Under the pieces are notes generated by a model that did no database searches, was not told the DNA's origin, and saw only the letters and a program-made list of their open reading frames with translations. A program made the translations under genes and the position numbers. From positions 1-5,738 of the forward strand of contig JAMCRS010000126.1 in assembly GCA_023380675.1 (NCBI GenBank): DNA of 5,738 nucleotides. Reading direction: 5' to 3'. Below, piece after piece: positions 3,789 through 5,738 of the stretch. Position 1 is the first letter of the stretch, and every line of letters starts with the position of its first letter. This DNA is from Chloroflexota bacterium. Lineage in GTDB: Bacteria; Chloroflexota; Anaerolineae; UBA4142.

Positions 3789-4868
3789 TCAGATCATCCC
3801 GTAGCGCATGAGAGCCGCTTGCAGAATCCCGTTGATCAGTCCGACGTAGGGCAATCCATCCGCGTCTGCCGCCATGACGATATCGCTAATGCCCTCCTGC
3901 AGCCCCGCCAGCGGATTGACCTCGAGGACGTACGGCTCGCCGTCCTCAGCGCGGACCCGAAAATCGATTCGCGCAAAGTCACAGCATTCGAGAGCCGCGA
4001 AGGCGCCGGCCGCCATTCGCTCCATTTTGGCTCGGAGCGGCTTGGAGACGGGCGCCGGGCAAAGGTATTTGGGCACATTGTAAAGCTTGCTCTTGATCAC
4101 AGCCGTGTAGAGCCCGGCCTCTTCCGGCGGACAGGGCGATAGATCGACCTCGAGCGGCGGAAAAACGCGCAACGCCGGCTCCAGGGATTTGGCGGTGCGC
4201 CCGTTCCCGTTCGACCTCACCGCGCGAGCCGCCGGCGGCCCGCTCGCAACGTTCCCCAGGATTCCCAGCGTGAACTCGCGCCCGTCAACGAATTCTTCGA
4301 CCAGCGCGGGCTGCCGGTAGCTTTCGACGACGAACTTGACCTGCTCGCGTAGCTCGCGAGCGCTGCGGCAGACCGATTTGGCGGTGACGCCGATGCCGGA
4401 CCCTTCGCGGCTCGGTTTGACGAACAGGGGATAACGGAGCCGAGAGTCAACCCGTTCTTCCCCGGTAAAGAAAGTCTGGAACGCCGGCGTCGGAATCTTG
4501 TGATATTGCAGGATGCGCTTGGTCATCGGCTTGTCGAGCGCGAGCGACAGCGTCATGACGCCGGCGCCCGTATACGGCACGCGGAGCATATCGAGCAGAG
4601 CCGGGATCTGCGCTTCGCGCGACGCGCCGAAATGGCCTTCACACGTATTGAACGCGATGTCGACCTTGTAGCGCTGCAGCTTGGCCGGCAGCGTGCCGTC
4701 CCCTTCCATCGGGATCACCTGGTGGCCGCCGGCGCACAGCGCCCGCTCCATATCCCCTACCGTCTTTTCGCTGTCGAGCTCATTCCAGGCGTCCCACGGC
4801 TCATCTTCCCTCTCACGCGGAGCGTTCCGCTTGAGATTGTACAAGAGGGCAACCGTGAATTTCTTCAT
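3789..4868 (-). CDS. D-Ala-D-Ala-ligase-like ATP-grasp enzyme (carboxylate-amine ligase), partner of the aminomutase
   Basis: This 359-residue protein has the ATP-grasp fold of Ddl enzymes, which activate a carboxylate as acyl phosphate and join it to an amine. The N-terminal domain (1-~112) has EGHFGASREAQIPALL (77-92) and VPYTG (97-101), then LDKPMTKRIL. The ATP site shows PLFVKPSREGSGIGV (Lys151 and the glycine loop) and LVEEFVDGREFT (hinge Glu191/192). Metal ligands are expected at Asp302 (ARIDFR), Glu316 and Asn318 (VLEVNPLAGL). In true Ddl the first motif is HGxxGEDGxIQG and the last is NTxPGMT. Both differ here, so the substrate is probably not D-Ala-D-Ala. Residues ~206-233 look like an insertion with SNGNGRTAKS. 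The ATG is three bases after the kamA stop, with GAGG (4880-4877) eight bases upstream, implying coupled translation. Best hypothesis is a ligase for beta-lysine or a derivative; the substrate is not shown by the sequence. Confidence 0.9.
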   Translation of the reverse strand: MKKFTVALLYNLKRNAPREREDEPWDAWNELDSEKTVGDMERALCAGGHQVIPMEGDGTLPAKLQRYKVDIAFNTCEGHFGASREAQIPALLDMLRVPYTGAGVMTLSLALDKPMTKRILQYHKIPTPAFQTFFTGEERVDSRLRYPLFVKPSREGSGIGVTAKSVCRSARELREQVKFVVESYRQPALVEEFVDGREFTLGILGNVASGPPAARAVRSNGNGRTAKSLEPALRVFPPLEVDLSPCPPEEAGLYTAVIKSKLYNVPKYLCPAPVSKPLRAKMERMAAGAFAALECCDFARIDFRVRAEDGEPYVLEVNPLAGLQEGISDIVMAADADGLPYVGLINGILQAALMRYGMI

Positions 4869-4871
4869 TCG

Positions 4872-5738
4872 TCACGCCTCAGGTCGCGATTTGCCGTTGC
4901 CGTTCGACCGCGGCTTGACGTTGCCGGCACTGCGCGCCGAATTGACCACCGGCATGACGGACTCGAGCGGGATCAGCTCACGCTGCTGCAGGCTCTTGAC
5001 CTGCATTTGCAGAGGCGTCTTTCGCCTCATCTTTTTCTCCGCGTCGAGCTTTTTGACGCGGCGCTGCTTTCGCCGCAGGCCGTCCGGCTCCAGCACGACT
5101 GCGTCCCCCGCCAACAGCTTGGCGACACCCTCTTTGGGCGCCGCGCGCCGGCAGTATTCGCAATTGTCCGAATGATGATGCTCATATCGGTCCGGCTCGG
5201 AGTAGGTCGCGATGACCCCTTCAAAGTTCCGAACGACGACCTTGCGGTCGCTCATGGAGATCATATAGTTGGGCATGATCGGGACTTTGCCGCCGCCGCC
5301 CGGCGCGTCGATGCAAAACGTCGGAACGGCGAAGCCGGTCGTGTGGCCGCGCAGCGCCTCGATGATCGAGAGCCCCACGCTGACCGGCGTCCGAAAATGG
5401 CCGATGCCTTGGGAAAGGTCGCACTGGTAGAGATAGTACGGCCGAACGCGGCACTTGACCAGCTCGTGGACCAGCACCTTCATCGTATTGGCGCAGTCGT
5501 TGATGCCGGCCATCAGCACGGTTTGTGCGCCGAGCGGGATGCCCGCATCCGCCAGCTTGGCGAACGCGCGGCGAACGTCCGGCGTTATCTCCTTCGGGTG
5601 ATTGACGTGAACGTTGAGCCAGATCGGATGGTATTTGCGGATCGTGTCGATCATCGTGTCCGTGATCCGCTGCGGCAAAAAGATCGGGATGCGCGATCCA
5701 AAGCGAACGATCTCTACCGATTGACCGCAATGCCGAGG
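4872..5738 (-). CDS. kamA: KamA-family lysine 2,3-aminomutase (radical SAM, PLP), C-terminal 288 residues
   Basis: The reading frame is open to the window edge; the apparent TTG start at 5678 is internal because the preceding 20 codons (ending FGSRIPIF) continue the family match. From memory of Clostridium subterminale KamA, the fragment aligns almost without gaps from about residue 187. Thus about 186 residues, including the CxxxCxxC [4Fe-4S] motif, are missing. The PLP lysine (Lys337 in that enzyme) is the Lys of DAPGGGGK (codon 5288-5286). The lysine side-chain ligands Asp293 and Asp330 are kept in YQCDLS (5420-5418) and IDAPGG (5309-5307), so L-lysine to beta-lysine is the expected reaction. 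Of the zinc ligands, Cys268, Cys377 and Cys380 are kept (5495-5493, 5162-5160, 5153-5151), but Cys375 is replaced in a HHHSD insertion. A basic tail of about 65 residues ends in RSNGNGKSRPEA, longer than the Clostridium protein and reminiscent of the Bacillus YodO tail. Confidence 0.93.
   Translation of the reverse strand, partial: PRHCGQSVEIVRFGSRIPIFLPQRITDTMIDTIRKYHPIWLNVHVNHPKEITPDVRRAFAKLADAGIPLGAQTVLMAGINDCANTMKVLVHELVKCRVRPYYLYQCDLSQGIGHFRTPVSVGLSIIEALRGHTTGFAVPTFCIDAPGGGGKVPIMPNYMISMSDRKVVVRNFEGVIATYSEPDRYEHHHSDNCEYCRRAAPKEGVAKLLAGDAVVLEPDGLRRKQRRVKKLDAEKKMRRKTPLQMQVKSLQQRELIPLESVMPVVNSARSAGNVKPRSNGNGKSRPEA
4877..4880 (-). promoter_or_regulatory. Shine-Dalgarno of the ligase inside the kamA end
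   Basis: GAGG lies within the last codons of the aminomutase gene, eight bases before the ligase ATG, and the stop and start are separated by three bases (TGA, CGA, ATG on the minus strand). This supports the annotated ligase start and a coupled two-gene unit. Confidence 0.6.

Follow-up and report, generated by a model that had tools for sequence, protein, structure and literature searches.

The stretch of DNA analyzed here, 5,738 nucleotides long and referred to below as the window, carries all of its genes on the minus strand in the order kamA, lig1, a DksA/TraR-type gene, a gene for a protein of no family, an OmpR-type regulator gene, a histidine kinase gene and a fragment. The features are as follows.

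4872..5738, minus strand: kamA, lysine 2,3-aminomutase, C-terminal 288 residues; its 5′ end lies outside the window
4877..4880, minus strand: GAGG, a ribosome-binding-like site for lig1 within kamA, read from the sequence
3789..4868, minus strand: lig1, Ddl-fold ATP-grasp ligase of 359 aa, from Pfam, an AF2 model and solved folds
3285..3614, minus strand: DksA/TraR-type zinc-finger gene, from Pfam
2448..3272, minus strand: protein without a Pfam or NCBIfam match
1764..2438, minus strand: OmpR-type response regulator, from Pfam
327..1703, minus strand: HAMP/HisKA sensor histidine kinase, from Pfam

kamA ends at 4872 and the ATG of lig1 lies at 4868, leaving three bases (4869-4871) between the two genes. 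The GAGG within kamA is likely the ribosome-binding site of lig1; both this site and the three-base spacing had been described in the original prediction and agree with the sequence. The genes on the 3′ side of lig1 recur at related loci: the response regulator (74-90% identity), the histidine kinase (55-70%) and a counterpart of the 2448..3272 protein (28-53%) were found in L001-L012, and the DksA/TraR-type gene also follows lig1 in L001, L002, L004, L005, L006 and L010. The 2448..3272 protein contains a Pro/Thr-rich stretch. The window gave no Rfam match, and two Rfam searches of 20 loci at gathering cut-offs returned tRNA and 6S RNA only and no known riboswitch; riboswitch control of kamA-lig1 was dropped as an explanation on these grounds.

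The window KamA matches Pfam LAM_C (3.6e-40), and its best NCBIfam family is lys_2_3_AblA. As a fragment of 288 C-terminal codons it scores 327.7 against the TIGR03820 (AblA) cut-off of 525.4; two full-length KamA proteins from its kin score 539.3 and 557, above that cut-off, but fall short of the EpmB cut-off (369.3) with 222.9 and 263.2. Alignment with the solved lysine 2,3-aminomutase 2a5h places its positions 293, 330 and 337 at D107, D144 and K151 of the window KamA, and the equivalents of D293, D330 and K337 are present in 75 of 75 distinct KamA sequences, a set that includes the window and also KamA proteins of genomes without lig1. The two aspartates are those that we take to select lysine, and both are retained, as had been predicted. 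The CxxxCxxC radical-SAM motif, whose site lies beyond the window end, is found in 74 of the 74 other KamA sequences, the count being given for these because the window's match to the third Cys is an alignment artefact. Judged by profile scores and aligned residues, KamA here is of the lysine type, AblA-like rather than EpmB-like. An NGNG stretch is common to the basic KamA tail (window 4872-5070) and to a disordered loop of lig1 (window 4182-4241; residues 210-229, pLDDT under 50 in the AF2 model), and is present in the L001 KamA as well.

Of the two Ddl domains, lig1 matches the C-terminal one (PF07478, 8.1e-28) but, at E≤0.001, not the N-terminal one (PF01820). Its AF2 model has a pLDDT of 91.1, and the closest solved structures are Ddl enzymes, which it resembles in fold, in the residues for ATP and Mg and in those for the carboxylate of the second substrate. 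It differs from Ddl elsewhere in the active site. At the positions that we take to be His63 and Tyr216 in Ddl numbering, lig1 has Glu (E77) in 81 of 81 sequences and no Tyr in the 80 readable sequences of 81, respectively; Leu282 of Ddl is replaced by Asp, and Arg304 is new. R300, D302, R304, E316, N318, G322, S328 and D329 are present in all 80 readable sequences. The claim that the ligase motifs diverge from those of true Ddl is supported, with the His63 and Tyr216 equivalents gone and a new Asp and Arg invariant. Moreover, a canonical Ddl with PF01820 is encoded by a separate gene in 16 of 16 lig1 genomes tested, which argues, judging from these relatives, that lig1 is not the sole D-Ala-D-Ala ligase; the explanation of lig1 as the sole Ddl was accordingly set low.

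A scan of GTDB contigs for lig1 yielded 374 relatives, the named near ones being Chloroflexota. Among the best 80 loci of the 374, which were analyzed, the window KamA fragment finds kamA near lig1 in 19. Some loci are present twice (for example, L101 is L004 and L138 is L005). Co-occurrence was evaluated in a sample of 120 genomes, all from the Chloroflexota class to which Pelolinea submarina (locus L031, genome G010) belongs, with lig1 called by profile A1 at E≤1e-40 and kamA by TIGR03820 at E≤1e-60. lig1 was called in 66 genomes, a biased frequency because the central genome was picked as lig1-bearing and several members also came from the lig1 scan, and kamA in 75. Both genes occur in 65 genomes, lig1 alone in 1, kamA alone in 10 and neither in 44, so that kamA accompanies lig1 in 65/66 genomes as compared with 10/54 without lig1 (Fisher p 7e-22, with descent ignored in a sample that is not phylogenetically independent). 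Of the 65 genomes that have both genes, 44 carry kamA upstream of lig1 and on its strand, the two matches being less than 2.5 kb apart (in G048 another ligase stands between them); the remaining 21 carry kamA at another place in the assembly. The distances of KamA and lig1 between loci are correlated (r=0.78 over 50 loci), to which shared species descent contributes.

The original prediction had coupled KamA to an ATP-grasp ligase other than Ddl and had proposed a survey of how often the two genes adjoin. With adjacency in 44 of the 66 lig1 genomes the pairing extends well past one genome, and the coupling holds up. At the level of comparative genomics, the gene order, conservation, co-occurrence and residues establish the coupling of KamA with lig1, and because the genes are linked the two proteins very likely share one pathway. 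The substrate, product, order of steps and role of lig1 we infer.

The genes that follow the pair were counted with tblastn because ORF calling missed 3 of 80 ligases and 8 of 54 kamA genes. Downstream of kamA in the 44 adjacent loci there is a second ligase gene, lig2, in 22, a GNAT acetyltransferase gene in 19 and a third ligase gene, lig3, in 4; where at least 3.5 kb follows kamA (35 loci), lig2 is present in 18 and lig2 together with GNAT in 17. Not all lig2 labels in these counts are strong or certain (L105, 57 bits; L123, 76 bits; L120, possibly a lig1 copy). The order in L027 (Candidatus Thermoflexus) is kamA-lig1-lig2-GNAT-lig3, and in L013 lig2 and GNAT form one fused protein. At E≤1e-90, a cut set after seeing the list in order to exclude lig1 cross-matches, lig2 is found in 36/66 lig1 genomes versus 2/54 others; at the search cut of E≤1e-60 it is found in 44 of 120 genomes, 42 with lig1 and 2 without. 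In the kin of the window lig2 occupies a separate genomic site; GNAT adjoins it in L091, L092, L094 and L096, whereas L093 and L095 gave no GNAT call there. Fusions of lig2 with GNAT are found in Gemmatimonadota and Dehalococcoidia too, so this part is not tied to the Chloroflexota class. The proposed search for recurring third genes thus returned lig2, a GNAT acetyltransferase and sometimes lig3, along with a LysW-like gene in at least 15 of 66 genomes (see below).

The combination of a ligase and a GNAT enzyme recalls the synthesis of N-acetylglutaminylglutamine amide, a capped peptide osmolyte, which uses an ATP-grasp enzyme and a GNAT enzyme but, unlike the set here, no aminomutase. TIGR03103, presumably the NCBIfam model for N-acetylglutaminylglutamine amide synthetase, is not among the matches listed for the L013 lig2-GNAT fusion (25 of 29 families).

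The established partners of β-lysine formation are largely missing. Neither AblB nor EpmA had been seen in the original prediction; this stands for the window and, for AblB, for all 120 class genomes (0/120 at E≤1e-10), whereas an EpmA-type protein scores above its cut-off in 5 of the 120 (G113, G092, G067, G130 and G025), all with kamA and lig1. Explanations through an AblB-type osmolyte or through EpmA were set low on these counts. kamA-ablB has been described as an osmolyte operon in which a lysine 2,3-aminomutase is joined by an acetyltransferase and serves an osmotic role (PMC11337218); the genes studied here share with this AblA/AblB pathway to N-epsilon-acetyl-β-lysine the aminomutase start, but pair the aminomutase with an ATP-grasp ligase. 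The wider gene set includes a different GNAT acetyltransferase, that of L027 giving no AblB match at E≤1e-5.

In the clade of the window, the pair stands behind genes of potassium type. In L001-L006 and L064, where lig1 is 66-75% identical to that of the window, a Usp gene and a pair of TrkA-domain genes stand ahead of kamA, and in five of these seven loci a transporter at least 71% identical to that of L002 comes before them; of the remaining two, L001 gave no match and L006 a 24% match only. This transporter, presumably KimA-like, gave a match to AA_permease_2 (3e-35) and a weak one to K_trans. In L008-L012 the TrkA pair and Usp gene precede lig1 with no kamA there, and KimA-like genes are present in L009 and L012. 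Only 15 of 166 loci gave TrkA matches, and three of these 15 are either duplicates or additional representatives of the same clade. Outside the window clade, L106 has a KimA-like gene (7422-9257, 49% over 614 aa) that begins some 90 bases past lig1; in L112 a weak KimA-like match lies farther along. Because the pair lies behind potassium-type genes in the window clade, an osmotic or ionic role is the likeliest physiology; that the product of kamA-lig1 serves osmotic or ionic balance is nevertheless put forward tentatively, as a possibility suggested by the potassium-type genes of a single clade and of one locus outside it (L106).

The reading that we favor, at a probability of about 0.5, is that the β-lysine made by KamA is joined by lig1 in an amide bond, and that the product is a β-lysyl peptide or conjugate and may be an acetylated osmolyte. 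KamA would convert L-lysine to β-lysine, and lig1 would spend ATP on an amide bond involving it, a use of β-lysine that we consider probable. The active-site pattern of lig1 favors a scheme in which an acyl phosphate would form on a donor carboxylate in the altered first subsite, while a cationic amino acid would occupy the second, held there by the retained Arg/Ser/Gly carboxylate clamp and by the new Asp329, its amine attacking the acyl phosphate. In many relatives lig2, GNAT and sometimes lig3 may then extend and acetylate the product to a small capped β-lysyl peptide or conjugate. Counting against this reading are the 21 of 65 genomes in which kamA is distant and the loci L008-L012, which keep the TrkA genes and lig1 without kamA. 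The small share of loci with TrkA matches, the negative riboswitch searches of 20 loci, the phylogenetic dependence within the genome sample and the lig2-GNAT fusions of other groups weigh on the same side.

The first two of these observations would be expected if lig1 used L-lysine or another amino acid, with KamA acting in a parallel or later step and the product lacking β-lysine; we regard this as unlikely in view of the near-total co-occurrence and frequent adjacency of kamA and lig1 and of their correlated distances, even allowing for the part of that correlation due to species descent. That lig1 is an accessory cell-wall ligase of the D-Ala-D-Ala type, paired with kamA incidentally, would fit its closest solved structures and best profile matches, which are Ddl or Van relatives, but is improbable given the separate canonical Ddl in every lig1 genome tested, the loss of the His63 and Tyr216 equivalents and the linkage to kamA. 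Still more improbable, to the point of being nearly dismissed, is that KamA serves the β-lysylation of EF-P with lig1 a bystander. A KamA-family enzyme does supply β-lysine in the EpmA/EpmB/EF-P system, and all five genomes with an EpmA-type protein have kamA and lig1; the other 115 lack EpmA above the cut-off, however, and the two full-length KamA proteins fall below the EpmB cut-off.

A route through a carrier protein is a rather unlikely alternative that draws on a different set of genes. Here lig1 or a partner ligase would attach lysine or β-lysine to a small zinc-ribbon protein, LysW-like or rubredoxin-like, through an acidic carboxylate of that protein, in the manner of LysX and LysW, and the carrier-bound group would then be processed. 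In at least 15 of the 66 lig1 genomes a LysW-like PF21344 gene lies within 3 kb on the same strand (a lower bound, with matches down to about E 7e-5), upstream of kamA in 10; in the other 5 it adjoins lig1, and kamA is neither between the two nor next to it. All six LysW-like proteins scanned pass the Pfam cut-off, and other Cys proteins with acidic tails occupy similar places; altogether 24 of 87 kamA loci, some counted twice, have one of three types of small Cys protein. Against the carrier route, the tails of the LysW-like proteins are mostly acidic but none of eight read ends in Glu, presumably the attachment site of LysW, and loci of the window clade gave no match to the small-Cys-protein patterns. 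PF21344 matches of some kind occur in at least 107 of the 120 class genomes. In 6 of the 15 (G021, G052, G056, G079, G084 and G121) the gene by lig1 or kamA is the sole PF21344 match of the genome among the matches listed, so it might be the ordinary LysW there; the other nine have further matches. The likeness to the LysW/LysX pathway, an ATP-grasp ligase adjoining a LysW-fold protein in some genomes, is also offset by the Ddl type of the ligase: to our knowledge the known LysW ligases are LysX/ArgX-type and none is Ddl-type. An elaborated form, which we hold to be distinctly unlikely, is a β-amino-acid carrier pathway in which Ddl-type ligases would load lysine or β-lysine on acidic zinc-ribbon proteins, two to three ligases would build a β-peptide, GNAT would cap it before release, and the window clade would represent a reduced form tied to potassium uptake.

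Returning to the amide of β-lysine, a Ddl-like ligase that lacks key Ddl residues and stands beside kamA points to an unrecognized route for β-lysine into larger molecules. β-Lysine occurs in NRPS antibiotics and in lysine fermentation; in streptothricin and viomycin, as in the product proposed here, aminomutase-derived β-lysine is put into a peptide, but this is done by NRPS-type enzymes, whereas the partner here is a stand-alone ATP-grasp ligase. That such a partner is conserved across a large group of mostly uncultured bacteria implies that β-lysine has another use, independent of NRPS enzymes, in a β-lysyl peptide or conjugate, besides those in the acetylated osmolyte and in the modification of EF-P. 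A compatible solute not seen before may be the product, and lig1-type proteins, which are named D-alanine-D-alanine ligase in sequence sources, would be misnamed. A literature search conducted mostly outside subscription journals found no paper on the kamA/ATP-grasp pair; Iyer and colleagues reportedly made a broad survey of ATP-grasp enzymes in 2009.

Several further arrangements were observed around these genes. The small Cys proteins recurring around kamA-lig1, most with long acidic tails, are LysW-like in L105, L110, L112, L117, L121, L124, L131 and L132, rubredoxin-like in L103, L104, L116, L120 and L152, and of other kinds in L104, L120 and L142. In kin of the window, near lig2-GNAT, there is a protein with a twin-arginine-like start and a helical look (L091:7444-8316, L092:7190-8134 and L096:8246-9271). 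Arrays of lig1 with one or two lig2-type ligases, kamA being on another contig, occur in G057:C26, G125:C49, G106:C36 and G085:C13 and C14. Finally, in ten loci with lig1 and no adjoining kamA (L020, L023, L024, L028, L035, L044, L057, L059, L063 and L071), lig1 follows a protein of 436-455 aa that resembles a membrane transporter.
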